Source: Isoptericola halalbus
Lineage (GTDB): Bacteria; Actinomycetota; Actinomycetes; Actinomycetales; Cellulomonadaceae
Length of the DNA stretch: 64,000 nt
Reading direction: 5' to 3'
Assembly (NCBI GenBank): GCA_009663185.1
Contig: VJZX01000001.1
Location: 62,001 to 126,000, forward strand
Shown: positions 1 through 14,410 of the stretch, piece after piece
Layout of the letters: every line of letters starts with the position of its first letter
How positions within the stretch are numbered: position 1 is the stretch's first letter
The notes under the pieces: model-generated
Told to the model about the DNA's origin: nothing
Database searches by the model: none
Seen by the model: the letters and a program-made list of their open reading frames with translations, nothing else
Program-made: the position numbers and the translations under genes

Positions 1-1247
1 AACATCACCGATGCGCGGGGCCGGAGCGACGTCATGCCCTCCGGAAGCGCCTTGGTCCCAACCCAGATATCAGGCGAACCGTCGTCGGGCTTGATCCACC
101 CGAAGCCCTTCTCTGCGTTGAACCATTTCACGACCCCGGTGATGGTCGCGGTCCTCCCATTGCCGCCAGCCCCAACCGCTTCGTGGTTATGGGGATCGGC
201 CTCCTCCGTTCTTTGCGGATCTTCTTCCCCTCCGCCTGAAGGGACCAACACCCCATTCTCGAAGACCCAGTGGCTTGCGTGAGCAGCGACGTCCGCCTCG
301 ATCCTGGCGAGCGTCGCCAGACTGTCGCCAGGGGCGATGAAGTGAACCTTGAAGCCCTCGACTTCCCGAATCGTCCTCCGTTGCAACCTGTCAAAGCCCG
401 AGGGAACGTCTGTGGCCGCTCCACAACTGAATCGGATGTGGCGATCGTGCGGTCCGTAAAAGCCCTCCACCGGTTGATGCCACTTGGCGATAAAGAGATG
501 AGCGCTGGTTGGCCGGTGCGCAACGAACCTCGTACGCCCGAGGTACTCGCCGAGTTCCTCGATCGAGTAATCGCCAGCTTTCGCGTAGAGGTTGACCGTG
601 ACCTCCGAGTTGGGCGGAAGATCGTCGTTGAGGCGGTCAAGTAGCCAAGTGACGTGTGCTAGTCGACCTCGGGCGTCCCCGCCGAACTCCCTCTCTCCGA
701 ACAGGTATGGATCGCAGACGTGCACTTCGGTCGATGCTTGGGTCGCGCGCGACCACCGGAGCGCCCAGATTTCGTCTCGTGACGTTCCCTTCGGATGGGT
801 CGGCTCGGCGTCGATGGTGCGCAGCCGCTCGATCAACGCCGATCGATCGAACCGCTTGACCGTCGTGAGTTCGGGCACCCACCCGTCGGGCGGTCGTTTC
901 CCGATCGACTCCGTGACGACGGCCATGTCCACGGCGTCCCGCAGACTCGCCGAGATGATGCCGTCAGAGTCGAACCAGTCGCTCGTCAGTGCGTTCTCGT
1001 CACTCCCAACGCCGATGCGGCCGGTTCCATGGAGTGCCGTGAGTAGGTGCTGCCAGATCTCTCCGACCTCTCCGTCCGCGTGTGCGACGGCGTCGAAGAG
1101 CGCGCCGACATCACCCTTGCCCCGGAGGTGCAGTACGCCATATCGCTGCAGTTCCCGAGCAACACGCGCGTGAGCGTCGGCGCGGTCCTCGGCATCGCCG
1201 CTGGGCTCCGTAAGCGAGCGCGCGTCTACCGCAACCTGGGCAATCAC
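1..1247 (-). CDS. Protein with HDR-motif (PLD/MIT_C-like?) domain and C-terminal cold-shock domain, partial
   Basis: I read this frame by hand on the minus strand; it is open for 415 residues and continues past the left edge. The GTG start overlaps the stop of the upstream ATPase gene (GTGA), which implies translational coupling. Residues about 1-150 are not recognised. Around residue 267 there is HDRHIRF in a beta-rich context, which recalls the HDRxIRF motif of phospholipase-D-like MIT_C domains; that link is tentative. From about residue 370 there is a clear cold-shock (OB-fold) domain with [19 protein letters not shown], containing the RNP1-like KGFGWI; the RNP2 position reads DIWVGT instead of the usual DVFVH. 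A Glu/Gly-rich linker separates the two parts. Coupling to an ATPase plus a nucleic-acid-binding tail suggests an effector subunit, but no function is proven. Confidence 0.75.
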
Positions 1248-2851
1248 GCGCGTCCGCCCAAGACGTCTGCGAGGCTGTCGTCGAAGAACCCAGTGGGCCA
1301 GGGATCGAGAAGTTCGCCGCGCCGGCCGAGCCGGAGTCGCTCGACTGTCGCACCGACACCGGGCTGGTTGTCGACATACAGCACCGAGACATCTTCGGGC
1401 GCGATCGTGCCCTCGCGCACCAGACGGCGTACACGAAGGAGAAGGTTCTCCGAGTGGGTCTCCGCAATGATCTGGTTGCCCTGCTCGATGACCGCTTCCA
1501 CGAAGAGATCGCCGAGGTTCGACTGGAGTCGCGGGTGAAGGTGAAGTTCGGGCTGCTCAATACAGACCACCTGACCCGACCGACCCAGACACTCGGTGAC
1601 GATCGGCAGCAGTTGGCTGACGCCATAGCCCACATCGGACAGGCTGACCTTCACCTGCGACCGATTGTCCGTGAGCTCGAACGAGTAGCCCAGTTCGGTC
1701 CCGGAACGAGCCTCGATCGCGCGGTCGACGCTGATGTCGTACGGGACCTCGAGCCTGTCGAGCCAAGCGTTGACTTCAGAGAGCAGCCGCTCGCTGCGGT
1801 GCAGACGGGAGACGAGGTCCAGCGCGGTCGGCTCATCCGATCCGTCGTTCAGGGAGACACAGCGCGGAGCGGGACGAATAGGCCCGAGCGTGCGGAGGTT
1901 CGACTGGAGGATCTCGCGGCCTTCGCGCGCGACCTCCGCGAAGGGGCCAGCAGTTGCCTTGAGCCCGTGGATCCAGCCGTGCTCAAGGTCGCCCTTCCTC
2001 CAACGGGCGACGACCTTCTCGAGATCGCGCTCGATGGCTTCCGCAAGGCGATACTCGGACAGCGCGTCGAGACCGGTCACGTCACCCGGCGTCATGACGA
2101 GAGTCAGCGCTGACGGTACGTCCGGGCCGGACTGCCAATCCTCCGGGGAGTTCCAGACCACGAGGCGGGTCGATTGCAGGGCACCGGAGCGGAGCCCAAA
2201 CTCCACGAACCTGAGCAACTCCGCTTCCTGTGAGGAACTGCCCCACGACGGGATCCTCTCCCGCAGAACCGCGGCGGCACCAGGGTCGCTTAGGTCGAGA
2301 CTCCAGCGCTGCACGTAGGTACCGCCCCGCTCATCCTCTTCCCAGACCTCCGGTTGGGGCTCAGAGAGCGCAGGCAGCCCCGCGACGCGGATCGCGGTCC
2401 TGAAGTACACCCTCTCCTCGTCCTGGCGGAACCTGAACTCGAAGCCGTTTACAGCCATGATGGGCCGGGTGTCGAGGTCGTCTGGGTCGGGGCCGACGAT
2501 CCATTCAGTCGACACCTCCATTGCGAAAGAGGCCCCGAGCGTCACCTCTCGCTCGACGTCGTGCCCGCTGACGAACTGCCGGAAGTTACGAACGTTCACC
2601 TTCGGCCCCTCTGGCTCGAAGGCGTTGGCTTCAAGGCTCTGTGCGAGCAGGAGCAGCGACTGGATGACTGTCGACTTGCCGGCGGCGTTGGGGCCGAAGA
2701 GAAGAGTGAGCGGGGCGAGCGGAACCGTGTGCTCGCCGACGAACGACTTGGCGTTCCCGATGCGCAGTTCCTGAAGGAGATGCGGTGACAGCGCGACGAG
2801 GCTGCCTTCCCCTGCGCTCGCGGCCGCAGGGGTGTCATTTCCGTCGCGCAT
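1244..2851 (-). CDS. AAA family ATPase with DUF3696-type C-terminus
   Basis: This is an SMC/RecF-like P-loop ATPase of about 535 residues. The Walker [10 protein letters not shown] is near residue 53. A long middle segment is followed by [14 protein letters not shown] (signature-like) and the Walker B/D-loop [10 protein letters not shown] near residue 440. The end reads WPTGFFDD, the usual tail of DUF3696 proteins. Such ATPases occur as the energy-using partner in many prokaryotic conflict systems. I prefer the ATG at 2851, preceded by GAAGGAG at a good distance; a GTG at 2866 with GAGGAG upstream is also possible. It overlaps the downstream cold-shock gene by 4 bases and lies 93 bases after the S1-domain gene, all on the minus strand. 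The family is clear; its role in defence is inference. Confidence 0.85.
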
Positions 2852-2944
2852 TGCGTACTCCTTCACTTCTTGCTCCTCGTGGATGCTACAGACCTTCTCA
2901 AGGCCGCCGGCATGGCGTGGCCGCGACCGTGCTGGCGAACCTGC

Positions 2945-4120
2945 TCATCGCTCGTTGGCGAGCGCGAAGTTGAGCTTTCCCTCGTCGTTCTTGCCAGTGA
3001 CCCGCACGTGGAGCCACTGGCCGACGTTCACCAGCGCCGCAGCATCCTCGACGGGACGCCCGCCGTTGAGTGCAGCGAGCTCGGACTTGTGCAGGAGCCC
3101 AGACTCTCCGGACTGGAGGCGGACGAACACGCCGAACGGCTTGACGCCTGTGACCTCACCCCAGCAGGGCTCGTACCCCCGGGTGGGAGCCGGCGGCACC
3201 GCTGCCTGGATCCGGGCGACGTCGACCTGTCCCGCGGCGTAGATCTTCGCCAGCTCGATGCGGTGGTCGACCTGGTTCAGCCACTCGTCGAGCACCTGGG
3301 ACGGCTTCGTCGTCCCGCGCGCCTGGTGCACGCCTTCGAGGAGTTGCTGCTCCAGGTCGGCTGCGCAGGAGTTCCAGAGGATCTCCCGTGCCGCTGCCTC
3401 CGGCGACGCCACCGTCCCCACGGGAGCACCCTGCAGGATCGCGACCAGCTCGAGGTGGGCGCGCGCGAACTTGGCGGCGACCGAGACCTTCGCGCGAGCC
3501 CATCCCTTCTCGATGGCACGGACCTGGGCAGGCACCGAACGGCCGACGTTCTGGGCGACCGCGGCCAGGTGCTTCTTCTCCAGCCCAGCGATGAACTCGA
3601 AGGGCACGACGTTTGCGGACGGGCTGCCCGACATCTCTACGACGGACGTGATGCTCGGGACAGACCCGCTGTTGACGGTGACGAGCTGGGACATGGGGGC
3701 ACCCTCCTGGGGGACGACGATGTGACGGTCAAGGTCAAGGCCCGTGGTGGCAGCGGGCTGCTCGTGCGGGTCCGCCCGCTCCGGGGCTGGTGAACTGCTC
3801 AGCGAGAGCCCACTGGGGCGACTCGCGTCGATAGGTCGGCGCGTGCCGACGATGGCGCGAGCGACGTCTGCGATCAGGGCTCCGGCGTTGCCTGCGGATC
3901 GCATGGACTGGCCGATTGTCTGCCCGGCTCGGCCCTTGCTGTAGTACTTGCCGTCGTGATTGCCGTATGCCTGCAGGGTGGCGATCTGCCGCGGGGTCGC
4001 GGGCTGTGACCACATGCGCGTGTTCGCCGCGCGTCGCGCCGAGGACGTCCCGCCGCCGTTGCGCGCGGAGGAGCCTGAGGCGCGGTTGCCAGTGCTGGCG
4101 CTGCGGTATCCCTTGGCCAT
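2945..4120 (-). CDS. S1 RNA-binding domain protein
   Basis: The product is 391 residues. A low-complexity Ser/Arg/Gly-rich start is followed by a short TPRQIATLQAYG motif near residue 42, similar to the small helical motif found in phage and mobile-element proteins. The middle is predicted helical. The last 75 residues form an S1/OB-fold domain: GEVTGVKPFGVFVRL, GLLHKSEL, then VGQWLHVRV and KLNFALA. The start is supported by GGAGAGGAG upstream of ATG 4120. It is probably the first gene of the minus-strand operon that continues with the AAA ATPase and the cold-shock-domain protein, so two of the three products carry OB-fold nucleic-acid-binding domains. It might instead be a native element gene unrelated to the pair; the 93-base gap leaves this open. 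Confidence 0.8.
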   Translation of the reverse strand: MAKGYRSASTGNRASGSSARNGGGTSSARRAANTRMWSQPATPRQIATLQAYGNHDGKYYSKGRAGQTIGQSMRSAGNAGALIADVARAIVGTRRPIDASRPSGLSLSSSPAPERADPHEQPAATTGLDLDRHIVVPQEGAPMSQLVTVNSGSVPSITSVVEMSGSPSANVVPFEFIAGLEKKHLAAVAQNVGRSVPAQVRAIEKGWARAKVSVAAKFARAHLELVAILQGAPVGTVASPEAAAREILWNSCAADLEQQLLEGVHQARGTTKPSQVLDEWLNQVDHRIELAKIYAAGQVDVARIQAAVPPAPTRGYEPCWGEVTGVKPFGVFVRLQSGESGLLHKSELAALNGGRPVEDAAALVNVGQWLHVRVTGKNDEGKLNFALANER

Positions 4121-4250
4121 GCCAAACTCCTCTCCTGCTGGCCGGCGAAGGGTCCGCCGGAAAATGCAAAGTCGACCAGGTTAAGGTCGGGCGGCTCCGG
4201 AAGTCAACTCCACTTGAAACATGCGGAGCGCGGGGACGTGGAGGTCGCGA

Positions 4251-4305
4251 CCTCCCATACCAGCTCGCCCCGATCTCCCATACGCCGTCGGGCGACCTCC
4301 CATAC
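4251..4305 (+). repeat. Three direct repeats CTCCCATAC with 22-23 bp period (iteron- or operator-like)
   Basis: The decamer CCTCCCATAC (second copy TCTCCCATAC) begins at 4251, 4274 and 4296, giving a spacing of 23 and 22 bases, about two helical turns. The intervening DNA is GC-rich and includes CGACCTCCCATAC twice. The array lies in the divergent region between the S1-domain gene and the primase-polymerase gene. That setting fits either replication iterons or an operator for a dimeric repressor. A related inverted copy lies about 85 bases downstream. Confidence 0.6.
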
Positions 4306-4385
4306 CGCTCGCCGGGCCCGAATCGCGTGTCGTCAGCCCCTCATTCCGAGCGACTTCTGGGAGGTGCCCGACCTGCGGGTGATGC

Positions 4386-4407
4386 ACCTCCTATACGTAT
4401 GGAAGGT
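4386..4407. promoter_or_regulatory. Inverted repeat related to the upstream direct repeats
   Basis: ACCTCCTATAC is followed directly by GTATGGAAGGT, an imperfect 11-base palindrome (9 of 11 pairs) whose half-site is the CTCCCATAC repeat. It lies 42 bases before the start of the primase-polymerase gene. The site is likely bound by the same protein as the direct repeats, and could act as operator or origin element. The rest of 4121-4448 shows nothing else that I can name. Confidence 0.5.
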
Positions 4408-4448
4408 GGGGTGTATGGCCAGAAGTCTGGTGACATGGGCAGCGCACC

Positions 4449-5405
4449 GTGGCGGGCATGGACACCACGCCCGCCCCGCACGGTTCGTCGGCCGCGAGTC
4501 ACGCCTCAGGCATGCCGGACCTGGCCGCGTTCGCCCTCGCGTTCCGGGCCGCCGACAGCGCGCCGTCGCTCGCTGAGGCCGCGCACACCTACGCCGCTGT
4601 CGGCGTGCCGGTGTTCCCGTGCGTGTCCGGGGCGAAGCAGCCGCTCACGAATCGTGGCTTCCACGACGCGTCCAGCGACCAACGCCTCGTGGAGGCGTGG
4701 TGGCGCTGGACGCCGGACGCGAACGTCGGCATCCCGACCGGAGCGGCATCGGGTCTCGACGTCGTCGATGTCGACCAGCACTCCGAGTCCGGGTTCCCAG
4801 CTTTCAACGGCGCGACGCGTCGTGGATTGACGGCCGGGTGGGCGTGGACGGTGCGCACGCCGTCGGGCGGGATGCACTTCTACTTCCCGCACCCGGTCGG
4901 CGTCGAGCAGCGGTCGTGGACGACCCGGGCCCGGATCGATTTCCGCGGCGACGGCGGGTACGTTGTCGCCCCGCCATCACGCGTCCGTCTCGGAGACGGC
5001 GAGCTGCGCTACTACCAGTTCGGCGTGCAGTCCCCGCGCCAGTCGGCTCCTGTGGACGCCGTGGCGCTGCGGGCGTTCCTGGACCCGCCCCGCCCGCGCC
5101 TGGCGCGCCCGGAGGGGGCACCGCGCGGAGCGGGGCGCACCAACCCCGAACGCCTCGCCGGCTTCGTCGCGAGCACCGGCGAGGGTCGGCGCAACTCCGT
5201 CTTGTTCTGGGCCGCGTGCGAGATGGTGCGCGACGCCTACGACCCGGCCTCGGTGCTCGGCGTCCTGGGTCCTGCCGCCGCGCACGCGGGCCTGGGTGAG
5301 CGGGAGATCGAGGCCACCGTGCGCAGCGCGTTCAAGCGTGCCGTTCCGATCACCACCCGGGGCGGCGGGGGCCGCCCTTTCGCCAGTGAGGGGGTCCACC
5401 TGTGA
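4449..5405 (+). CDS. Bifunctional DNA primase/polymerase (Prim-Pol) domain protein
   Basis: The product is 318 residues. The Prim-Pol domain spans about residues 35-215: AAHTYAAVGVPVFPC, then the acidic motif DVVDVDQH near residue 103, TPSGGMHFYF near 140, and RIDFRGDGGYVVAPPS near 165. This order matches the AEP-type N-terminal primases of actinobacterial plasmids and ICEs. The C-terminal 100 residues are a helical tail with no helicase domain, so a separate helicase would be needed. The GTG at 4449 is the longest start; an ATG at 4458 is also possible. The gene is the first of a rightward run of overlapping genes and probably initiates replication of the excised element, perhaps at the repeats just upstream. 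Confidence 0.88.
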   Translation: MAGMDTTPAPHGSSAASHASGMPDLAAFALAFRAADSAPSLAEAAHTYAAVGVPVFPCVSGAKQPLTNRGFHDASSDQRLVEAWWRWTPDANVGIPTGAASGLDVVDVDQHSESGFPAFNGATRRGLTAGWAWTVRTPSGGMHFYFPHPVGVEQRSWTTRARIDFRGDGGYVVAPPSRVRLGDGELRYYQFGVQSPRQSAPVDAVALRAFLDPPRPRLARPEGAPRGAGRTNPERLAGFVASTGEGRRNSVLFWAACEMVRDAYDPASVLGVLGPAAAHAGLGEREIEATVRSAFKRAVPITTRGGGGRPFASEGVHL

Positions 5406-5884
5406 ACACCAACGGCTATGACGACCGGCGTGACCAATCGCCGCCGACTCCGACCACGCCGTCGCGCGCGGCGGCACCGAAGCATCCGAGCGGGCTGGTC
5501 CACGGGGATCCGTCGCTCCGCCAGGTTCGCCCGGAGGTTCCTCCGACGCCGGCAGCCGGGCCGCGCTCAAAGGTCATCTGGGCGCACTCGACCGACGCCG
5601 CCGCATTGGGCATGAAGGTGCTCGGGCGGGGCATCGGCAAGGGCCTGGACTTCCAGGTGGCCGCGACCAAGACCGCCGTGCGCGTCCCAGTCCGGGCGGC
5701 GGGCGCTGTCGGCCGGCGGGTGTCGGCGTCGTATGCGGCGCGCAAGGAGCGGGCACGTGAGGCCGTCACTCCGGCAACGCCCGGCACACCGGGGACGCCG
5801 GTCACTCCGGTGGGCCCATCGGCGTCGGGGACCGCGCGGGGGTCGCGGGCCGTCTCGGGGCCTGGGGTGGTGTGGCAGCCATGA
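5402..5884 (+). CDS. Hypothetical protein, Pro/Thr-rich
   Basis: A 160-residue product overlaps the primase stop by 4 bases (GTGA), so it is cotranslated. The first 55 residues are Pro/Thr-rich and presumably disordered. Residues about 58-120 form one possibly amphipathic helical stretch with Ala, Arg and Val. The tail has TPATPGTPGTPVTP repeats. No domain is recognised. Its place between primase and a ParB-bearing block suggests a maintenance or transfer accessory role, which is only inference. Confidence 0.6.
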   Translation: MNTNGYDDRRDQSPPTPTTPSRAAAPKHPSGLVHGDPSLRQVRPEVPPTPAAGPRSKVIWAHSTDAAALGMKVLGRGIGKGLDFQVAATKTAVRVPVRAAGAVGRRVSASYAARKERAREAVTPATPGTPGTPVTPVGPSASGTARGSRAVSGPGVVWQP

Positions 5885-6768
5885 GCGTCATCGAGATCGC
5901 TCCGACGACGGACTTCCGGACGGCCGACGGGCTGCGGGAGGTGCTGCTGCGGCTGCATCGTGACCCCACGCTGTGGCGCACCGCCCCGATCGCGGCGGCT
6001 CTCCTCGAGCATTGCCGCGAGAAGTACGCGGCGCTGGCTCGTAAGCACGGGCAGTCGCCGGACGACGCGATGCGTGTGGCGTTCGAGCTCCTGCGCGCCG
6101 ACGGAACCCGATGGGCAGCCGACCCCTGGGGTGCCCTGACCCGCGGGGTGCGGGTCGCCCTGCTGACATCACAGTTCGAGGACGCCCTCATGTGCGGGCG
6201 CAATCAGGCATCCCACCTCATCACCACGAGCTCGCCGCGCTGGGTGGCCCGATTCGGAGAACACGACCACCTGGAGCACTACGTCGAGGGGTTCGTCGCC
6301 GACGTCGAGGCTGCGGCCGGCGAGCCGCAGTGGGATGCGTTCACCGTCGTCGAAGGCATCGTGGACTCCGCAGTCGAGGTGCTGACCGCGTGCGGGTGGC
6401 CCTCCGCAACGGCAGGTCACGCCGTCGGGCTCATCGCTTCACGGCTCATCGCCTCCTACGGTGACGGCGCAGAACCGGAGCTCGCGCGGACGCGCGCACA
6501 CGAGTACCTGCGCCACGACATCGACTCACCACGTCTGCTCGGACTCGACCGGCGGCCATGGCTCGCGCTGCTGACCGCCGTCCTAGGCAGCCCATCGCCG
6601 CACTGGCACGGCACCGCCGTCGGGCACGGGATGTTCCTGCGCCTAGCATCCGGAGCGTCTCGTGACGACCTGCTCGCCGACGGCCGGCTCGTCACCACGC
6701 TGTGCGCCGCCGCCCCGACGTCGGTGACGCGGCAGGACGACGGGATGCGGGAGGTGCGCCATGCCTGA
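5881..6768 (+). CDS. Conserved ICE hypothetical protein
   Basis: A 295-residue soluble, mostly helical product starts at ATG 5881, overlapping the previous stop (ATGA). It has no signal peptide or membrane segment. Features that can be seen are a TADGLREVLLRLHRD start, a central EHDHLEHYVEGFVADVEAA helix and a conserved-looking RAHEYLRHD segment. I do not recognise a family. It overlaps the ParB-like gene by 8 bases, so it belongs to the replication/partition block of the element. Confidence 0.6.
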   Translation: MSVIEIAPTTDFRTADGLREVLLRLHRDPTLWRTAPIAAALLEHCREKYAALARKHGQSPDDAMRVAFELLRADGTRWAADPWGALTRGVRVALLTSQFEDALMCGRNQASHLITTSSPRWVARFGEHDHLEHYVEGFVADVEAAAGEPQWDAFTVVEGIVDSAVEVLTACGWPSATAGHAVGLIASRLIASYGDGAEPELARTRAHEYLRHDIDSPRLLGLDRRPWLALLTAVLGSPSPHWHGTAVGHGMFLRLASGASRDDLLADGRLVTTLCAAAPTSVTRQDDGMREVRHA

Positions 6769-7777
6769 GCACGCCTACTCACCGGCGGTCCTCCCTATCA
6801 CGGCCATCACGGTCGGGCACCGGTACCGCCGCGACCTCGGCGACCTGTCCGGGCTCATCTCCTCGATCCGCGGAATCGGGTTGCTCAACCCGCCGGTCGT
6901 CTCGTCCGACGGCGTCCTGCTGTGCGGGGCGCGACGGCTGGCGGCGGTCCAGCAGCTCGGCTGGAGCCAGGTCGAGGTGCGGGTTGCCACCGACGCGAGC
7001 GGCACCCTGACCGCAGTGCTCGCCGAGCAGCACGAGAACGAGCTGCGGCTCGACTTGTCGCCGGTGGAGCAGGCGACGCTCTACGCCGAGCTCAAGGAGG
7101 TCTACGCCGAGGATGCCCGACGTCGGCAGGAGTCGTCACGGTTCGGCGGAGCCGGGGTTCTCGAGGGAGGTGACGGTGGTGGCGATTCGCCACCACCGTG
7201 GGGTGAGTCGGGCAAGAGCCGCGACAAGGCGGCCCTCGCGGTCACCGGGAAAGAGTCATACAAGCGACTCGACCAGATCACCAAGGTGCAGGCCGTCGTC
7301 GACGACCCCGAACTCCCTCTGACCGTCCGCCGCTTGGCCGAGGAGATCCTCGACGAGATCAACGCCGGCGGCTCCGTGGACCCGCTGTACCGGAAGGTGA
7401 TGACGGCGGTGCAGCTCGCAACCGCGACCCCGCCGGCCCCGCCTGCTCGAAAGGAGGCGTCGGAGGAGGAGATCGCCGAGCTCTCCCGGCAGGCGCTGGC
7501 GACCGCGCAGGCGCGGCGGGCCGAGGAGATCCAGGCGGCGGCCGCGCGGCGGCTCGCGGCATCGACGGCGGTGCGCAACCCGATGACGGTCGTGTTGACG
7601 TGGAAGCCGTTCGAGGGCTGGCCGCGGCACTACGACGTCGAGCAGGTCGCGCGCTCGGTGCCCCAGAAGGACTGGGAGTTCGTCTGCCGGGTCCACGAGG
7701 ACATCGACCGCTGGATCGACGCCGTCAACGAGGCTCGAGCAGCGCTGGGCGGCGACGAGACGACCGAAGCGGTGTGA
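6761..7777 (+). CDS. ParB/Spo0J-like partition protein
   Basis: The product is 338 residues. The N-terminal ParB domain spans residues about 5-110: LPITAITVGHRYRRDLGD, LISSIRGIGLLNPPVV, GARRLAAVQQLGW near residue 56 (the GERR nucleotide-binding box with Ala for Glu), and HENELRLDLSPVEQA near residue 90. A Gly/Pro-rich insert at about 128-150 precedes a helical middle region. The C-terminal part (about 230-335) has long charged helices rather than a classical ParB dimer domain. No ParA is visible. In ICEs such ParB-like proteins serve maintenance or regulation. The insert is encoded by a perfect inverted repeat, listed separately. Confidence 0.85.
   Translation: MPEHAYSPAVLPITAITVGHRYRRDLGDLSGLISSIRGIGLLNPPVVSSDGVLLCGARRLAAVQQLGWSQVEVRVATDASGTLTAVLAEQHENELRLDLSPVEQATLYAELKEVYAEDARRRQESSRFGGAGVLEGGDGGGDSPPPWGESGKSRDKAALAVTGKESYKRLDQITKVQAVVDDPELPLTVRRLAEEILDEINAGGSVDPLYRKVMTAVQLATATPPAPPARKEASEEEIAELSRQALATAQARRAEEIQAAAARRLAASTAVRNPMTVVLTWKPFEGWPRHYDVEQVARSVPQKDWEFVCRVHEDIDRWIDAVNEARAALGGDETTEAV
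7173..7199. repeat. Perfect 13-bp inverted repeat inside the ParB-like gene
   Basis: ACGGTGGTGGCGA and TCGCCACCACCGT are separated by one base (7173-7185 and 7187-7199). The repeat encodes the Gly/Ser/Pro insert of the ParB-like protein. A palindrome of this length inside coding DNA is unusual and could be a protein-binding site (parS-like or transfer-related) or a small inserted repeat. Its function is unknown. Confidence 0.55.
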
Positions 7778-7780
7778 GTC

Positions 7781-8491
7781 ATGCGCCCACTGCTCGCCTC
7801 AAGTTCTCGTCGTCGGCCGCTCGCGTGGATCGCGGCAGTGCTGGTCGTCGTCCTCGGCGTCCTCGCCGTGGCGTCCGTGGTTCAGCGCGAGTCCAGTGCC
7901 GTGCCGACGGGTCGCGTCGATCCTGCCTCCGCCGGCCCCGATGTCACAGGCCCGTCCGCGACGCCGAACCCAAACCCTGCTACTAGGCCGGCCCTCCGCA
8001 CGCGGGAGCTCGAGCCAATCCACGAGACGTCCGACCCGGCCGCGTTCGCGCGGGCGGCAGCCGAAGCGCTCTTCGAGTGGGACACAGCCTCCGGTGTGTC
8101 CCTGGGCGACTACAGGGGCCGGCTCCTGGTGGTCGCCGACCCGACCGGCGTGGAGTCGCCCGGCCTCGTGGCCGACCTGGCCGCCTACCTGCCGGAGACG
8201 ACGGTGTGGGAGCACCTGTCGCGGTACTCGACCCGGCAGTGGCTCCAGGTCACCGACGTCTGGGTGCCCGGGCAGTGGCACGAGGCCCTCGCCCAGGTTC
8301 CCGCAGGGACGGTCGCCGACGGCACGACGGCGTTGACCGTCACCGGAGTTCGGCATCGGGCCGGGGTGTGGGACGGCGAACCGGTCGCCTCGGCCCACGA
8401 CGTCGCGTTCACGCTTTTCGTCGTCTGCGGCCCCACCTACCCGACCTGTCACCTGCTGCGGGTCTCGCAGCTCGACAACCCGCTGAAGTGA
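7781..8491 (+). CDS. Single-pass membrane protein of the transfer apparatus
   Basis: A 236-residue product has a short basic start, one membrane helix at about residues 14-33 (WIAAVLVVVLGVLAVASVV), and a long outside portion. The Pro/Thr linker runs to about residue 65. The soluble part (about 80-236) has an alpha/beta pattern like VirB8/TcpC or NTF2-like transfer proteins, and it contains two Cys near the end (VVCGPTYPTCHLL) that may form a disulfide. It begins 3 bases after the ParB gene and precedes the M23 hydrolase. A VirB8-like scaffold role is plausible from topology and position only. Confidence 0.65.
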   Translation: MRPLLASSSRRRPLAWIAAVLVVVLGVLAVASVVQRESSAVPTGRVDPASAGPDVTGPSATPNPNPATRPALRTRELEPIHETSDPAAFARAAAEALFEWDTASGVSLGDYRGRLLVVADPTGVESPGLVADLAAYLPETTVWEHLSRYSTRQWLQVTDVWVPGQWHEALAQVPAGTVADGTTALTVTGVRHRAGVWDGEPVASAHDVAFTLFVVCGPTYPTCHLLRVSQLDNPLK

Positions 8492-8503
8492 AGGGGGCAG
8501 GTC

Positions 8504-9691
8504 ATGCGTAGTTTCATCGTCGGGCTGCTCGTGCTCCTCGCAGGGCCGGTGACCGGCCTGGTTGCGATAGCCGCGGTCATGGCCCGCGGAGCGGAGTCCT
8601 CGTGCTCGACGCCGTCGCTGCCCGCTGTGGGCGAGATCCCGGACGGGCTCATCGCCACCACCTCCAACGGCACCCGGATCTCGCTGAACCGCACCCAGCT
8701 CGGTCACGCGGCCACCATCATCGACGTCGGGTCACGTACCGGCGGTGTGGGGCGGGACGGCGTCGTGGTCGCGCTCATGGCGGCGCTGACCGAGTCGAGC
8801 CTGCGGATGCTCGCCAACACCGGCGCCTACCCCGCCTCGGGCTCGTTCCCGAACGACGGCGACGCCTCCGACCACGACAGCCTCGGGCTTTTCCAGATGC
8901 GCCCGGTCGCCGGGTGGGGAACAGTCGCCGACCTGATGGACCCGGCTTACCAGGCCGCGGCGTTCTTCGGCGGGCCCGAGGGTCCGAACGGCGGGTCGCC
9001 GCGCGGGCTGCTCGACATTCCCGACTGGGCCTCGCTGTCCAAGGGCGCGGCGGCCCAAGCGGTCGAGGTTTCCGCGTACCCGGACCGGTACGCGCGGTTC
9101 GAGCCGGTCGCCGAACAGATCCTCGACACCCTCGCTCCACCGACCAGCGCGCCGGCCTCCGTCTCCCCCGAGGCGGCCCTCGTGTCCACGAGCCGCACAG
9201 TGTTCCCGCTCCCGGCAGGCACCTGGACCCGCACCAGCGAGTACGGGATGCGCCTCAACCCCGTGCTGCACGTCTGGCGGCTGCACGCCGGGGTCGACCT
9301 CGCCGCCGACGCGGGCACCCCGGTGCTCGCGACCGCGCCGGGACGTGTCGTCGCCGCAGAGCACTCCGGCGGACTCGGCATCCACGTCGCCGTCGAACAC
9401 GCGGTCGGTGGCGAGCGAGTCGTCAGCGTCTACGGACACCTGCGCGAGACGGCGGTCGCCGTCGGAGACGTCGTGGCCGCCGGTCAGGTGCTCGGGGAAG
9501 TCGGCTCGACGGGGAACTCCACCGGACCGCACCTGCACTTCGAGATCCGCCTCGGCGGCCTGGACGCGGACGCGATCGACCCGTCCGGCTGGCTGGAGGC
9601 CGCCCTTGCCAGCGGCGAGCTCGCCGCCTCCGACGTCACCCACGGCGGGACGCCCGCCGCGTGGTGCGGTCCGCAGGAGGTGACGACGTGA
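8504..9691 (+). CDS. Secreted M23 peptidase / cell-wall hydrolase of the T4SS
   Basis: A 395-residue product begins with an N-terminal membrane/signal segment (about residues 4-27). Residues about 60-200 look like a lysozyme-type fold: AALTESSLRMLANTG, then DSLGLFQMRP. Residues about 235-360 form an M23 endopeptidase domain with HAGVDLAA near 260 (H and D zinc ligands), VYGHL near 312 and PHLHFEIR near 344. Such two-domain enzymes open peptidoglycan for the conjugation channel (VirB1-like role). The start has AAGGGGG upstream. It overlaps the next small gene by 4 bases. Confidence 0.9.
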   Translation: MRSFIVGLLVLLAGPVTGLVAIAAVMARGAESSCSTPSLPAVGEIPDGLIATTSNGTRISLNRTQLGHAATIIDVGSRTGGVGRDGVVVALMAALTESSLRMLANTGAYPASGSFPNDGDASDHDSLGLFQMRPVAGWGTVADLMDPAYQAAAFFGGPEGPNGGSPRGLLDIPDWASLSKGAAAQAVEVSAYPDRYARFEPVAEQILDTLAPPTSAPASVSPEAALVSTSRTVFPLPAGTWTRTSEYGMRLNPVLHVWRLHAGVDLAADAGTPVLATAPGRVVAAEHSGGLGIHVAVEHAVGGERVVSVYGHLRETAVAVGDVVAAGQVLGEVGSTGNSTGPHLHFEIRLGGLDADAIDPSGWLEAALASGELAASDVTHGGTPAAWCGPQEVTT

Positions 9692-9981
9692 CCGACTTCG
9701 CACCCGTGCAGTCGGGCGACGTCGCACCCGACTTCGGGGCCGTCACCGCCGTGACCGCGCTGCCCGACGTCGTTGGCGCGCTGCTGACCATCGCGCTGAT
9801 CACCGCCGTCGGGCTGCTCATCATCTGCGCCGTCTCCTGGGCCATCGCGTCCGGCTCCGGCTCCTGGCACACCGCCGCCCGCGCACGGGCCGGCGTGCTC
9901 GTCGCCGTCGGCGGCGCCGCCCTCACCGGGGGCGCGCTGGCGTGGACCGACTACCTGCTCGAAGTCGGCACTCGGCTGTGA
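9688..9981 (+). CDS. Small two-helix membrane protein, DUF6112/VirB2-like
   Basis: A 97-residue product starts at GTG 9688, overlapping the M23 stop (GTGA). Two membrane helices at about residues 28-52 and 66-84 flank a short Ser/Gly/His loop and a basic ARARAG segment. This layout matches the 10,762-11,070 product (same length, same loop position, both ending near Trp/Phe-rich residues), so the two are likely paralogues. They resemble pilin-like or channel subunits encoded just before VirB6-type genes in actinobacterial ICEs. The role as pilin is inference. Confidence 0.75.
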   Translation: MTDFAPVQSGDVAPDFGAVTAVTALPDVVGALLTIALITAVGLLIICAVSWAIASGSGSWHTAARARAGVLVAVGGAALTGGALAWTDYLLEVGTRL

Positions 9982-10019
9982 CCTGGGCAATGTCATTCGA
10001 GCCCTGCCAGAATCAGGTC

Positions 10020-10697
10020 GTGCCAATCCCTTGGAGCATGCCTTCGATCCTGACGGTCGAGCGAACCTCCGACGCCGTCGCGCACCTCCAGCAGTACTTT
10101 GGCCGGACCTGGTACCCGCCAGGCCAGGAGAACCGCGGCTACACAGGTGGCCACTTCGAAGACATCGGAGGGCGCTGGAACACGCCCGAAGCGGCATTCA
10201 CGATCACGCCGGCGGACCTCGTTGCCGTCACCTGCCTTTCAGTATCTATCCCTGCCCACGCCGCGATACGCATCCTCGGTCCAGAGGCCAACGCGATCTC
10301 GGCACTCCTGCACGAGATCCCGACTGACCTCGACCTCTGGAACGCACTCGACGAGCATCTGGATGACGACTCACCCGCCGGGCGGCTCTGGCGCTTGCTA
10401 CGAGGCAGCCGGGACATGGGACCAACAACGACGAGCAAGCTCATCGCACGCAAGCGAGCTCGCCTCGCGCCGATCTACGACGATGTCGTTCGAAGCGAGC
10501 TTGGCCTCAGGAACTCTCGGGGGTACTGGACTGGCATGCGCGACCTCCTCAATCGGGAAGTTGAGCCCGGAAAGCCACTTCATGACCACCTCACAGAGCT
10601 AGCTCGGGAAGCGAAGCTGGACCCTGTGGTCACACCACTACGAGTACTCGACGTCGTGGTCTGGAAGGACGGCAGGTCCCGCTGGCGACAGCGCTGA
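10020..10697 (+). CDS. DUF6308 family protein (cargo)
   Basis: The product is about 225 soluble residues. Key segments are YTGGHFEDIGGRW, then ADLVAVTCLSVSIP, and MGPTTTSKLIARKRARLAPI, a pattern I associate with DUF6308. The family's function is unknown; it is found as a solitary gene in many actinobacteria. The start is uncertain: GTG 10020, ATG 10038 and ATG 9990 are all in frame. Codon use is visibly less GC-rich at third positions than in the neighbours. It stands between two paralogous membrane genes and so looks like an inserted gene, perhaps a defence or stress cargo. Confidence 0.75.
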   Translation: MPIPWSMPSILTVERTSDAVAHLQQYFGRTWYPPGQENRGYTGGHFEDIGGRWNTPEAAFTITPADLVAVTCLSVSIPAHAAIRILGPEANAISALLHEIPTDLDLWNALDEHLDDDSPAGRLWRLLRGSRDMGPTTTSKLIARKRARLAPIYDDVVRSELGLRNSRGYWTGMRDLLNREVEPGKPLHDHLTELAREAKLDPVVTPLRVLDVVVWKDGRSRWRQR

Positions 10698-10761
10698 CCG
10701 CCGGTGGCCCCTGGCGCGCACCTAAGAGGAGTCCGACTCCTCTGCGCGCACGGAGCCCACC

Positions 10762-11070
10762 ATGCTCACACTCCCCCAGCCGGCTGGACTGCCGACTGAC
10801 ATCGACATCGACCCGAACTCCTCGGGCTTGCCCGGCATCGCCCAGTTGCGCGAGATCGTCGGCGCGGTGATGACGATCGGCCTGATCCTCGCCGTCCTCG
10901 CCGTGATCATCGCGGCCCTGGTGTGGGCGTTCGGATCCAACTCCTCCAACCCGCACCTGGCCTCACGCGGCAAGTCCGGCGTCCTGGTGGCGCTTGCGGC
11001 GGCTGTCGTGTGTGGCGGGGCGGTCGCGCTCGTCAACTTCTTCTGGAACGTCGGCCAGACCGTCTCCTGA
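10762..11070 (+). CDS. Small two-helix membrane protein, DUF6112/VirB2-like, second copy
   Basis: A 102-residue product has helices at about residues 35-58 and 72-93, with a SNSSNPHLASRGKSG loop between. It follows the same plan as the 9,688-9,981 product. It lies just before the VirB6-like gene, which is the usual position of this family in T4SS-type ICEs. It may form part of the pilus or membrane channel. The in-frame start ATG 10762 has no strong ribosome site; translation may be helped by the upstream GAGGAGTCC at 10,727-10,735. Confidence 0.78.
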   Translation: MLTLPQPAGLPTDIDIDPNSSGLPGIAQLREIVGAVMTIGLILAVLAVIIAALVWAFGSNSSNPHLASRGKSGVLVALAAAVVCGGAVALVNFFWNVGQTVS

Positions 11071-11086
11071 CGGCAACGGCTCGGGG

Positions 11087-12394
11087 ATGGTGAGTCGGAT
11101 GGCGATGTGCGACCTGCCCGTCGTGGCGGCCGTGTGTCAGGCCGCCGGTGAGGGTGTGACCAACGCTTTCGTCGCTGGGCTCGCGTGGCTGGCGGACGCC
11201 GTCGCCGGGATGTCGGCGTACCTGTTCGAAGCCTTCTGGGTGATGTTCGAGACCACGACGTTCGTCGACATCACCTCCGGGCGCTTTACCCGGGTCTACA
11301 ACCAGCTGTTCGGCATCGCGGTGTTCGTGATGCTCGCCTTCTTCCTGCTCCAAGTCATCGGCGGGATGGTCCGCCGCGAGCCGGCCGCCCTGTCTCGTGC
11401 GGCGCTCGGGCTGGCCAAGTCCGTCCTCGGGTCATTCGTCGCGCTGACCCTCATCGCCCTCGCACTGGAGATCGTCGACCGGCTGTCCATCGCCCTCGTC
11501 GAGGCGACCGGCACGACCGTGGCGCAGATGGGCAACGACATCACCTTGCTGTCCGGGACCGTCGCCGTCGGCGCCACCGCGGGACCTGGCGTCGCGATCC
11601 TGCTGACCTTGTTCCTCGCGGGCCTGGCGGTCGGGGCGGGGTTCATCGTGTGGATCACCCTGCTCGTGCGCAAGGCCCTGCTCCTGGTCACGATCGTCTT
11701 TGCGCCCCTCGCCCTCGCGGGCGCGTCCTGGGACGCCACCCGCGGCTGGGTGACCCGGTGGGCGCAGTTCGTGCTCGCCCTCATCGTGAGCAAGCTCGTG
11801 ATGGTCGTGTTCTTCCTGCTCGCCGCTGAGCAGGCCGCCGCCCCCATCGAGGCCGACCTCGCCTCGATCGCCGACCCGCTCGCCGGGATCGTGCTGCTCC
11901 TGGTGGCCGGGTTCGCCCCGTATCTGACGTACAAGGCGATCAGCTTCATGGGCATCGACTTCTACCACGCGATGTCCACCGAGCAGGAGGCCAAGCAGGC
12001 CCTCAACCGTCCCGTCCCTGTCCCTCCCAACCCGTTCCGCCGCGCCGCGCCAAAGGTGCTAAACGTCGCCGCCGACGGCGGTGGACCTGGTGGCTCGACG
12101 TTGGGCGGCCGTGGGGCGGTGCCGCCACCGAGCGTGCGCACACCCGGCGGCCCGACGGCCGGTGCTCCTGCGGCTGGCGGTGGGTCCTCGGCCAGCGGTT
12201 CAGGCGCGGCAGGCGCGGGAGCGGGTGGCGCAGCGGCGGCCGGCGCCGGTGTGGCAGCCGCCGGTGCCGTCGTCGCCAAGGAAGCAGCGACGGCAGGACC
12301 AAAGCTCGGGGCCGTCGTAGCCGGACACACCGGCGCCCAGACCGACGCCGCTCACAACTCAACCCCAGGCACTCAGCAGGGAGACCGACGATGA
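11087..12394 (+). CDS. VirB6/TrbL-like conjugal transfer membrane protein
   Basis: The product is about 435 residues with at least six hydrophobic helices between about residues 15 and 290 (for example VYNQLFGIAVFVMLAFFLL and GIVLLLVAGFAPYLTYKAI). The C-terminal 125 residues are a Gly/Ala/Pro-rich disordered tail. This is the standard layout of the actinobacterial VirB6/TrbL channel component. The start could be ATG 11087, 11099 or 11105. It overlaps the SCO6880-like gene by 4 bases. In the complex it would form the inner-membrane pore for DNA passage. Confidence 0.85.
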   Translation: MVSRMAMCDLPVVAAVCQAAGEGVTNAFVAGLAWLADAVAGMSAYLFEAFWVMFETTTFVDITSGRFTRVYNQLFGIAVFVMLAFFLLQVIGGMVRREPAALSRAALGLAKSVLGSFVALTLIALALEIVDRLSIALVEATGTTVAQMGNDITLLSGTVAVGATAGPGVAILLTLFLAGLAVGAGFIVWITLLVRKALLLVTIVFAPLALAGASWDATRGWVTRWAQFVLALIVSKLVMVVFFLLAAEQAAAPIEADLASIADPLAGIVLLLVAGFAPYLTYKAISFMGIDFYHAMSTEQEAKQALNRPVPVPPNPFRRAAPKVLNVAADGGGPGGSTLGGRGAVPPPSVRTPGGPTAGAPAAGGGSSASGSGAAGAGAGGAAAAGAGVAAAGAVVAKEAATAGPKLGAVVAGHTGAQTDAAHNSTPGTQQGDRR

Positions 12395-13845
12395 CCACAA
12401 CCCCGACCACCGACACAGGCCTCGCGCCGGTGAAGTTCTCTCGCCTCGCCCGCCGCGGCGTGCTCCTTGGCCTGTCCGCCGCGCAGCTCGCCGTCGTCGG
12501 CGTCGGAGCAGTCGGCCTGGTGGCCGCGCTCGTGGCCGGCGGCATGGCGCCTGCGTGCGCGACGCCGCTGCTCGCCGTGTGCGCCGCGCTCGCCTTCGTC
12601 CGGGTCGGCGGGCGGCCCGTCGTCGAGTGGCTCCCCGTCGCCGCCGCGTGGGCACGGCGCTCCGCCACGGGGCAACTGGAATACCGCGCGCGGATCAGCA
12701 AACCTCGCCCTGCCGGGACGCTCGCGCTACCCGGAGACGACGCCCGGCTGCGCCAGTGGGTCGACGCCTCCACGGGAGCGGTCATGGTCCACGACCCGCA
12801 CGCCGCCACCCTGACCGCAGTCCTTTCCGTCTCCCATCCGGCGTTCATCCTGCTCGACCCCGCAGACCAGCAGCGCCGGGTCACCGCGTGGGGGCGGGTG
12901 CTCGCCACCACCTGCCGCTCGGGGAACATCGCGGCATTCCAGGTCGTCGAGCGCACCCTGCCTGACTCCGGCCGGGCCGTGGCGGACTGGTGGGAGACCC
13001 ACGGCACCCACGACGACTCGTGGGCCTCTCGGCTCTACGGTGACCTCGTCGCCACCGCCGGCCCCGCCGGCGAACGCCACGCCACGACCATCTCCCTGTC
13101 CTTGGACATGCGGGCGGCCGCCCGCACGGTCCGGGCCGCCGGTGGCGGGATGCGCGGAGCTGCCGCCGTGCTGCACCGCGAGGTCGAGACCCTCATCTCG
13201 GCGCTGCGCACCGCCGAGCTCGCCTCGACCGGGATGCTCGATGCCGGGGATCTCGCCCTCATCCTTCGCACCGCCTACGACCCCGCCGTCGGCGCGGCCC
13301 TCGAACGCCACGGCGACGTCGGGCGCGACCTCGCCACCGCCGGCCCCATCTCGGTCGCCGAGTCCTGGGGGCACCTGCGGTCCGACTCCGCCTACCACTG
13401 CGTGCTGTGGATCTCCGAATGGCCCCGATCCCTGGTCTACCCGGGCTTCCTCGCCCCCCTCATGCTCGCCGCGGGAGTCCGGCGCACGTTCTCCATGACC
13501 TTCCAGCCCGTGCGCGCCGACGTCGCCGCCCGCGACATCCGCCGCAAGAAGACCGAGTACCTTTCCGACGCCACCCAGCGCGCCAAGATCGGGCAGATCG
13601 AAGACGCAGCCCAGGCCGCCGAGTACGCCGACGTCCTCGCCCAAGAAGCCGACCTCACCAACGGCCACGGAGTGCTCCGAGCTGTCGGCCTGGTGACCGT
13701 CAGCGCACCCGACCCCGAGGAACTCGAGCGGGCCGTCGCCGCCATCGAGCAGGCCGCGATCCAAGCCTCCTGCGAGACCCGCCGCCTGCGGGGCCAGCAA
13801 GCCCAAGCCTTCACCGCGACCCTGCCGTTGTGTCGACGGATGTGA
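12391..13845 (+). CDS. SCO6880-family T4SS protein (PrgI/VirB3-like N-terminus)
   Basis: The product is 484 residues. Two close membrane helices at about residues 28-70 form a PrgI/VirB3-like anchor. The soluble part begins with PAGTLALPGDDARLRQWVD and runs through LRSDSAYHCVLWISEWPRS to QAQAFTATLPLCRRM at the end. This matches the SCO6880 family, the N-terminal half of a split VirB4 system; the ATPase half is the gene at 16,976. Normally the two halves are close; here about 2.7 kb of cargo and minus-strand genes separate them. The stop is only 10 bases from the cargo cassette, but the end looks intact. Confidence 0.87.
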   Translation: MTTTPTTDTGLAPVKFSRLARRGVLLGLSAAQLAVVGVGAVGLVAALVAGGMAPACATPLLAVCAALAFVRVGGRPVVEWLPVAAAWARRSATGQLEYRARISKPRPAGTLALPGDDARLRQWVDASTGAVMVHDPHAATLTAVLSVSHPAFILLDPADQQRRVTAWGRVLATTCRSGNIAAFQVVERTLPDSGRAVADWWETHGTHDDSWASRLYGDLVATAGPAGERHATTISLSLDMRAAARTVRAAGGGMRGAAAVLHREVETLISALRTAELASTGMLDAGDLALILRTAYDPAVGAALERHGDVGRDLATAGPISVAESWGHLRSDSAYHCVLWISEWPRSLVYPGFLAPLMLAAGVRRTFSMTFQPVRADVAARDIRRKKTEYLSDATQRAKIGQIEDAAQAAEYADVLAQEADLTNGHGVLRAVGLVTVSAPDPEELERAVAAIEQAAIQASCETRRLRGQQAQAFTATLPLCRRM

Positions 13846-13855
13846 GGTTCGGCCA

Positions 13856-14410
13856 TCAAGCAGCGCGGTGCCGATGGGCGAGCCGAAGAGCGATGATCAG
13901 CCCCAAGAGCCCGACCGTTGTGCCGAGACACGCAGCAACGAACCGGATTACCCCGCGAAAGGGCTCGTCACCACCCGCGGGGCGGGCCGCGGACTCCTCT
14001 GACGCGCGCGCGTCCACGCGTGCTGCCGCGACGAGCCCCTGTGGGTCATCACCGAATGCGGCTGTGATCTGACCAGGCGTGGGAGCTGTTGGCAGTTCCC
14101 ATAGGGACCGGTATGCGTCGGCGACCAGCGGCCAGACGACGCGGATTCCCTCGTCGACGGAGTTCACTTCGTCGGCCAGAGGTGGCGCCACCACAAACTC
14201 ATGCGGGATTGGCCGGCCAGCGTCGTCTCGCCGCCCCTCTGGGTCGAGGAAGCGAAGGGCCACACCGCCGTCGGTGCGACGAAGGACGGTCGGCTCGCCC
14301 GAAAGCCCCGCGAACGCTTCTCGATGGGTGACAAATGGCTTCGGGAAACCTCCGGTCAGCAGGAAGCGGAATCCCCAGGCATGACCGCCTGCGACCCAGA
14401 TCAACTTCAC
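13856..14410 (-). CDS. Hypothetical protein with C-terminal membrane helix, partner of the GTPase
   Basis: A 184-residue product starts at GTG 14410, overlapping the stop of the GTPase gene (GTGA), so the two are translationally coupled. The soluble part has GFRFLLTGGFPKPFVTHREA, then LRRTDGGVALRFLDPEGR and an IPHEFVVAPP segment. A single membrane helix sits at about residues 157-178, ending in a basic RLAHRHR tail, i.e. a tail-anchored protein. No family is recognised. Coupling to the GTPase suggests a membrane effector or anchor for it. Confidence 0.7.
   Translation of the reverse strand: MKLIWVAGGHAWGFRFLLTGGFPKPFVTHREAFAGLSGEPTVLRRTDGGVALRFLDPEGRRDDAGRPIPHEFVVAPPLADEVNSVDEGIRVVWPLVADAYRSLWELPTAPTPGQITAAFGDDPQGLVAAARVDARASEESAARPAGGDEPFRGVIRFVAACLGTTVGLLGLIIALRLAHRHRAA

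Follow-up and report, generated by a model that had tools for sequence, protein, structure and literature searches.

Several anti-phage systems are built around an ATPase of the OLD-type ABC family. Such ATPases are described together with Toprim, HNH, PD-(D/E)xK, and PIN partners (PMC12839542), Menshen is described as having DUF262 and OLD-type parts (PMC10952713), and OB-folds resembling the cold-shock domain are known from other conflict systems, the CoCoNuTs (PMC11090510). Here, we describe a three-gene operon, A-B-C, of Isoptericola halalbus, which lies at the start of a stretch of 64,000 nucleotides analyzed as a whole (contig VJZX01000001.1, positions 62,001 to 126,000; "the window"); gene coordinates are counted from window position 1. 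The three genes would form a Menshen-like defense module on a conjugative element, composed of a sensor (A), an ATPase (B), and an effector (C). Based on sequence comparisons and structure models, we assign this reading a probability of roughly 0.58; the case for defense is indirect and comes from the relatives of the proteins, the neighboring genes, and the carrier element.

Organization of the A-B-C operon and its carrier element

Open reading frame (ORF) prediction recovered all three genes on the minus strand, where the first-pass annotation, made from the letters of the window, had placed them. Gene A (positions 2945 to 4120) encodes a protein of 391 amino acids with an N-terminal conserved motif domain, a helical middle, and, according to Pfam, a C-terminal S1 OB-fold; it is the candidate sensor. 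Gene B (positions 1244 to 2866) encodes 540 amino acids that were assigned by Pfam, PADLOC, and profile comparison with the PDB to an OLD-type ABC ATPase with a C-terminal DUF3696. Gene C (positions 1 to 1247) encodes 436 amino acids with a predicted phospholipase D (PLD)-fold, MIT_C-like core, a disordered linker, and a cold-shock tail; the window edge cuts off 64 bases, and the complete reading frame is found on the same contig (L006, positions 11937 to 13247). The stop codon of B and the start codon of C overlap by 4 nucleotides (GTGA, positions 1244 to 1247, minus strand), with C starting with GTG at position 1247 and sharing the TGA of B. This overlap suggests that B and C are translationally coupled, as the annotation had claimed.

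Nine element proteins outside the trio were sampled. One flank of the operon contains T2SSE, T2SSF, and LysM genes, which we take to be a Tad-like cluster, and the other contains genes for a primase, an M23 peptidase, and a TraG/VirD4-type coupling protein. Because it is flanked by these type II secretion system-type, primase, peptidase, and coupling protein genes, the operon appears to reside on a conjugative-type element. A 1220-residue reading frame with a LysM domain (L006, positions 8187 to 11849) lies just beyond the window edge and separates the Tad-like cluster from the operon.

B is a predicted OLD-type ABC ATPase

In Pfam, B matched AAA_21 (E = 1.6e-24), AAA_15 (1.1e-21), and DUF3696 (2.4e-6), the latter at residues 488 to 534 (positions 1265 to 1405; this and all following window coordinates refer to the minus strand). 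The Walker A motif GPNAAGKST comprises residues 58 to 66 (positions 2669 to 2695), of which G58, N60, G63, K64, and S65 are invariant in all 13 aligned ATPases. The Walker B region EQPELHLHP (residues 437 to 445, positions 1532 to 1558) is followed by ETHSE at residues 469 to 473, and both the EQPE-H-hP and the ETHSE motif are maintained across the same 13 sequences. Among the PADLOC models, NsnB of Menshen scored best (5.3e-56, best of 105 families), followed by PDC-M55A (1.4e-45) and HEC-03B; the same three models, with NsnB first, were leading for the ATPases of five scanned relatives.

When a profile of the 13 ATPases was compared with solved structures, OLD (6p74) ranked first at 1.2e-14, followed by PtuA (4.5e-6), an Smc4 construct (6.1e-6), and AriA (7.1e-6). 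The annotation of B as an SMC/RecF-like ATPase thus stands as far as the ATPase is concerned and is refined to the OLD family; an SMC/RecF repair ATPase was rejected, as OLD is clearly at the top and the Smc4 chain ranks only between PtuA and AriA. No Toprim family was present among the Pfam matches of B or of the five scanned relatives. Pfam showed no helicase match anywhere in the trio, and GajA models matched just the ATPase parts of B.

C is a predicted PLD-fold protein with a cold-shock tail

MIT_C is the PLD-like domain of human MITD1. Profile comparisons and structure modeling indicate an MIT_C-like PLD fold for most of C and a relationship to both MITD1 and the C-terminal domains of some BrxL proteins. 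The domain spans residues 159 to 296 (positions 360 to 773), as judged by hhalign against the BrxL domains and by Foldseek matches to MITD1. The AlphaFold model of C has a mean predicted local distance difference test (pLDDT) score of 72; residues 1 to 340 average approximately 83, with blocks between 60 and 96, and residues 339 to 382 and 397 to 436 fall below 50. In the Foldseek search with this model, MITD1 occupied ranks 1 to 4 (2ymb, E = 1e-4; 4a5z, probability 1.00), phospholipases D came next (1f0i, E = 3.3e-3), and PLD3 bound to single-stranded DNA matched more weakly than these; a fold search against a viral library yielded one weak PLD match.

Sequence profiles led to the same families. 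Six of 13 C proteins showed a weak match to Pfam MIT_C at E values of up to 1 (best, 0.0019), and a 13-row profile of C matched MITD1 in the PDB at 0.00099 and 0.002, second behind a designed repeat protein (4.9e-6) that was judged spurious because it aligns elsewhere in C. Among 198 genomes of the phylum, MIT_C exceeded the cutoff in three, and PADLOC identified all three proteins as BrxL (L117, L118, and L119). Their C-terminal domains were aligned to the 13-row C profile with an hhalign probability of 95.5 (E = 1.5e-8) and to a 6-row profile with 75% (E = 2.5e-5). Moreover, the relative of C in L110 matched the PADLOC BrxL model at 0.0012 within the PLD-fold domain. Of 2913 type 1 BREX taxa with BrxL, 1030 have a C-terminal domain that has been described as an HKD endoDNase with R in place of K ("HRD"), a form argued to retain nuclease activity, which is itself a prediction (PMC12839542); the three MIT_C domains presumably correspond to this domain.

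The H-x-R motif of C (HDRHIRF, residues 267 to 273, positions 429 to 449) is highly conserved. D179, W201, H267, R269, F273, and G284 are invariant in all 13 C proteins of the alignment, in which the other members share 15 to 26% identity with the Isoptericola protein. The cold-shock domain covers residues 370 to 434 (positions 1 to 140, with the last residues beyond the window; Pfam CSD, 8.4e-12) and is present in 1 of the 13 proteins, the Isoptericola copy, so by sequence comparison the tail is a local add-on. The first-pass annotation had correctly recognized this ending and had overlooked the PLD fold that makes up most of the protein. In C, Pfam showed no match to Toprim, DUF4435, HNH, or helicase families, and its core had no PADLOC match.

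C could alternatively be a membrane- or protein-binding PLD-fold domain rather than a nuclease, which, once activated by B, would disturb the membrane or recruit a factor. In line with such a function, MITD1 is the closest solved fold and C has no canonical H-x-K-x4-D motif. However, even highly divergent members retain H-x-R and the D of the D-x-Y/F/W stretch, the fold also matches that of phospholipases D and, less closely, that of the DNA-bound PLD3, and the fused cold-shock domain fits a nucleic acid target; the nuclease activity predicted for the HRD form in BrxL (PMC12839542) points in the same direction. We consider a non-nuclease C unlikely and retain the effector as a candidate nuclease.

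B and C adjoin each other at all 13 loci collected

With full-length C as the query, only CspA-type cold-shock domains were matched beyond the protein itself, and searches were therefore repeated with residues 1 to 335. This portion was detected in 4 of 396 genomes of the order, and a 6-row profile detected C in 8 of 345 genomes of the class, the Isoptericola genome being counted in both cases; a 4-row profile found this genome only among 396 of the phylum. The samples partly overlap. A profile scan of a genome collection gave three loci, one of which was the Demequina locus found before. Single-sequence searches with C retrieved nothing from the genome contigs, viral contigs, or plasmids searched, and neither did the 6-row profile from viral contigs. 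The plasmid searches with C overlooked one member, that of Azospirillum (L141), which was recovered through its ATPase and a profile.

Altogether, 13 distinct C loci were collected: those of Isoptericola, Demequina (L086), Paractinoplanes (L087), and Arthrobacter (L088), as well as L098, L099, and L110 to L116. A DUF3696-type ATPase is encoded directly upstream of C in all 13, which were gathered with C as the query, and in each case a possible start of C lies between 32 nucleotides before and 1 nucleotide after the end of the ATPase stop codon. In L112, this start is TTG, with an alternative GTG 28 nucleotides downstream. By these comparisons, the conserved core is the ATPase with its predicted PLD-fold partner.

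Four loci encode a fusion in which an N6 methylase domain (Pfam, 8e-25 to 1e-36) precedes the ATPase: L087 (positions 5110 to 7626), L088 (5134 to 7815), L098 (13896 to 16772), and L099 (5924 to 8545). These domains are HsdM-like and keep a DPxCG-type motif I; in place of NPP, motif IV reads QPPW in L087 and L098, EPPF in L088, and QPPF in L099. The HsdM proteins encoded beside two of the fusions retain NPPF and NPPY, and a separate methylase near the Demequina trio reads EPPF. The fused domain is possibly a noncatalytic methylation sensor.

The S1 protein A and the second A-B-C trio

Genes A, B, and C occur in the same order and orientation in Demequina lignilytica (L086), with identities to the Isoptericola proteins of 56% for A, 40% for B, and 26% for C; by blastp, A and its homolog share 53% over 392 columns. 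The two regions were compared by blastp of predicted ORFs, which replaced a tblastx version that was too noisy. Among 80 ORFs (80 kb) of Demequina and 87 ORFs (96 kb) of Isoptericola, A, B, and C were the only matches at an E value of 1e-4. Because nothing else is shared between the regions, the trio has been seen twice in different surroundings, and the B-C pair is more widespread. Together with the adjacency of ATPase and C in all 13 loci, this recurrence indicates an arrangement beyond chance. A 69-residue reading frame is located between A and B in Demequina (L096, positions 2418 to 2627; G550:C15:72418-72627).

The S1 RNA-binding-type OB-fold of A was identified at residues 321 to 382 (positions 2975 to 3160; Pfam S1, E = 9e-8), and the OB strands of the predicted model lie at residues 318 to 387. 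An unnamed N-terminal domain (residues 22 to 80, positions 3881 to 4057) with the pattern ..PATxxQIxxLxAxxxxDGKYYSxGRAxQxI.. is also found in a protein of another genome, G025. The middle of A is helical (model helices at residues 174 to 306). The model, built from two sequences, is of low confidence (pLDDT 53) and was too poor for a fold search. A had no PADLOC match up to an E value of 10, and Pfam showed no DUF262 in it.

A search of 248 genomes of the order recovered full-length A from Isoptericola alone (Demequina was not among the matches of that sample), and G025 matched over 57 residues of the N-terminal domain only. Searching 197 genomes for this domain gave the Isoptericola protein plus three marginal matches, and the domain was absent from the viral contigs and plasmids searched. 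With A itself, plasmids gave no match and viral contigs gave two 26-residue matches only. Fourteen genomes were chosen for holding B-C or a relative of A; 2 of these, Isoptericola and Demequina, contain full-length A, and the remaining 12 contain generic S1 domains only, plus the N-terminal domain of A in G025. There (L100, positions 5214 to 10025), the domain is part of an otherwise different protein of 223 residues, which adjoins a 913-residue protein with a PIN-like start (by eye) and weak matches to mad6/PD-T4-6; a gene that is PP2C-like by eye is also present at this locus. That A is a backbone gene of such conjugative elements was rejected: A is missing from the 17 kb covered of the related element in Arthrobacter (L088), and in the 248-genome search no genome other than Isoptericola showed it in full length.

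The distribution of A raises the question of whether only B and C constitute a defense pair, with A as an unrelated RNA-binding or element-maintenance gene travelling alongside and the cold-shock tail as a recent fusion without a role in the system. Full-length A is missing from 11 of the 13 B-C loci, its conservation between both trios is far above that of B or C, its N-terminal domain sits beside other genes in G025, and a single C protein carries the cold-shock domain. Against this, A is itself rare, yet it immediately precedes B-C and points in the same direction in two regions that lack any other homology, which would be unlikely without linkage. We regard a two-gene system as somewhat doubtful and favor the module of three genes.

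Relatives of B adjoin partners of different classes

Matches to B were present in 52 plasmid and 16 phage records, and eight of these relatives were examined. All seven annotated relatives have an adjoining downstream gene, which overlaps in six cases and is one base apart in P2-EC5; in the unannotated Azospirillum plasmid record (L141), the next frame encodes a full relative of C (E = 1.7e-28). In L137 (positions 2700 to 5328) and L139 (positions 2571 to 5133), the partner is HEC-03A (2e-24), PIN-like by eye. The Deinococcus partner weakly matched the BrxL domain (E = 1.4e-4), and the Methylocella partner, and perhaps that of Acetobacter, is PLD-like by eye only. In P2-EC5, a P2 prophage pair (ORF555/ORF333; L142, positions 243 to 2913), the partner weakly matched a CARF-PDDEXK model (E = 0.0042) and is a possible PD-(D/E)xK protein. 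In R. opacus pROB02 (L135, positions 2517 to 6971), an NsnB-like ATPase gene overlaps that of a DUF2325-annotated partner, beside HEPN and NsnA (1.9e-57) genes; no PADLOC model matched this partner up to an E value of 1, and the locus is perhaps a Menshen variant with another effector. Because NsnA and the ATPase are combined here with a partner matching no PADLOC model, the effector slot of Menshen seems variable. More generally, since relatives of B adjoin partners of different classes, the sequence data support the view of one constant ATPase switch with exchangeable inputs and outputs. In L137 and L139, plasmids of Aeromonas and Rhodococcus, the DUF3696 ATPase and HEC-03A are followed by a gene of the RNA ligase family.

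Comparison with named systems

In its core, the trio resembles known ATPase-switch anti-phage systems, from which it differs in parts. With Menshen, which consists of NsnA (DUF262), the ATPase NsnB, and NsnC, it shares NsnB as the nearest model for B and a three-part makeup. Unlike Menshen, the trio contains an S1 protein without NsnA or DUF262 match and a PLD/MIT_C-like protein with a cold-shock tail. Neither C nor three of its relatives gave a match to NsnC up to an E value of 10, the presence of an NsnC model in the library being only assumed, and no solved NsnB-NsnC structure turned up for a comparison. HEC-03 is similar in having a DUF3696-annotated ATPase with an overlapping downstream gene (L137 and L139), and HEC-03B is the third-best model for B; HEC-03A (159 positions), however, is PIN-like by eye and encoded beside RNA ligase genes. 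Membership in HEC-03 was rejected, since C has no HEC-03A match whereas the partners in L137 and L139 match at 2e-24. PDC-M55A is the second-best model for B, but neither A nor C matched another PDC-M55 model; the DUF262 protein of R. opacus matched PDC-M55C at an E value of 0.016 only.

With BREX, the trio has in common the PLD-fold domain of C, which is homologous to the C-terminal HKD/MIT_C domain of the three BrxL proteins. In contrast to BREX, the switch of the trio is an OLD-type ABC ATPase, and no BrxL-type ATPase or other BREX gene was recognized in the trio; BrxC, PglX, and PglZ were not among the listed Pfam and PADLOC matches of its proteins. The pairs of OLD-type ABC ATPase and nuclease in PARIS, Septu, and Gabija correspond to an ABC ATPase with a partner, and the solved ATPases nearest to B include PtuA and AriA. 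Unlike PARIS and OLD-Toprim pairs, B and C have no Toprim or DUF4435 match in Pfam; unlike Septu, C has no match to HNH, the PtuB feature; and unlike Gabija, the trio lacks a GajA-type Toprim nuclease and a GajB-type helicase. Because no NsnA, HEC-03A, Toprim, or HNH match emerged from the sequence tests, the trio was not assigned to Menshen, HEC-03, PARIS, Septu, or Gabija. The A-B-C makeup was unmatched in PADLOC and in the literature searched, which did not reach published work on Menshen polymorphism and named DUF3696 only in one unrelated paper.

These results modify the first-pass annotation, which had found no named counterpart: this holds for A and the core of C, neither of which has a PADLOC match, and not for the core of the operon, whose resemblance to Menshen, PARIS, Septu, and HEC-03 gives it named relatives. 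The proposal that a pair of OB-folds flanking an ATPase defines the system was not supported, as 1 of 13 C proteins carries the cold-shock domain and 2 of 13 pairs are accompanied by the S1 gene. The suspected defense-like layout, an ATPase with a coupled partner on a conjugative element, gained support from the defense-type relatives and neighbors. The trio was encountered as neighbors once more, in the otherwise different region of Demequina, and no match to a known nondefense operon was found.

Genomic neighborhood and weighing of the defense reading

Defense genes were detected by profile beside 6 of the 12 foreign B-C loci, with neighbors picked by eye and without a random-locus control. 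Beside the Demequina trio lie a type I methylase gene and two HEC-06/Orf5/SspE-type genes, presumably of DUF262 type, the latter on the opposite strand at a distance of approximately 3 kb from the end of C; NsnA was not among their listed matches (25 of 27 and 23 of 23). HsdM and HsdS are encoded near L098, together with TIR_2 and ThsB, and near L099; Azaca ZacB/ZacC and a restriction gene near L114; and type III Csm3/Cas7 near L115 and L116. In the last two, the ATPase and PLD pair follows the Csm3/Cas7-type genes after 21 nucleotides (L115, positions 4663 to 10255) and 3 nucleotides (L116, positions 9286 to 14800) and looks like an accessory module of a type III CRISPR operon. CRISPR-like repeats, recognized by eye, adjoin the pair in L115. 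Beside the module in Arthrobacter, L088 (positions 697 to 4890) encodes a protein of 1397 residues that is STAND-like by eye, with a P-loop (GEPGIGKS) near its start; it had no PADLOC match at 1e-10.

These surroundings also bear on the idea that B and C are a housekeeping or DNA repair ATPase pair rather than a conflict system. L110/L111 and L112/L113 are located between housekeeping genes, by eye, with the position shared within each couple, and B has a weaker SMC/Rad50 likeness, the Smc4 chain being third in the structure list. Such a pair is difficult to reconcile with the patchy distribution of C (8 of 345 genomes of the class and 4 of 396 of the order, own genome counted), the copies on conjugative-type elements in Isoptericola and Arthrobacter (L088), the low sequence identity of C, and the defense genes at half of the foreign loci. 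We judge it quite improbable.

Several observations nevertheless weigh against A-B-C as a defense module. Apart from the way in which the neighbors were picked, no recognized defense gene was seen at the other six foreign loci (L087, L088, and L110 to L113), of which L110 to L113 sit among housekeeping genes, as judged by eye. A accompanies only 2 of 13 B-C pairs, and because it is conserved well beyond B and C between the two trios, it could have a function of its own. In C, the third residue of an HKD motif is not clear, as D286, the D after H-x-R, is kept in just 6 of 13 proteins. Moreover, the solved structure closest to it in fold, that of human MITD1, represents a noncatalytic membrane-binding domain.

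Proposed mechanism and implications

In the proposed module, B, as an OLD-type ABC ATPase, would dimerize around ATP and serve as the unchanging ATP-dependent switch. C would be the effector, a nuclease-like protein with a PLD fold and the H-x-R motif in its active site; its synthesis would keep pace with that of B, which would restrain or activate it. A, which carries the S1 OB-fold, may act upstream as the sensor or target-recognition part and may fill the role that DUF262 (NsnA), HsdM/HsdS, or the fused methylase-like domain, in part encoded by neighboring genes, may play in relatives. The tethered cold-shock OB-fold of the Isoptericola protein probably helps to hold RNA or single-stranded DNA. 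Upon infection or entry of foreign DNA or RNA, A and/or the cold-shock tail would bind exposed single-stranded nucleic acid; B would then change its ATP state, and C would cleave nucleic acid and so halt either the invader or the cell.

A more specific proposal is put forward only tentatively: A-B-C may be a distinct element-borne defense system in which the S1 protein stands in for the DUF262 sensor of Menshen, with exposed RNA or single-stranded DNA as the trigger, and the effector is an ATP-gated PLD nuclease of the MITD1/BrxL type that the cold-shock domain tethers to its substrate. It would belong to a wider family of DUF3696 ATPases with PLD partners, which the applied PADLOC models do not recognize as such and whose members would also act as accessory modules of type III CRISPR and type I restriction loci.

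As a defense module, A-B-C would add a PLD-fold effector class and possibly a new sensor of RNA/single-stranded DNA type to the ATPase-switch systems. If the same switch accepts DUF262, HsdM/HsdS, fused methylase-like, and S1 inputs and operates PIN-like, PLD, and other outputs, the question of how the switch reads its signals would become directly addressable. Finally, MITD1 is a human cytokinesis protein, and its relatives in bacteria would be placed in a biological context.

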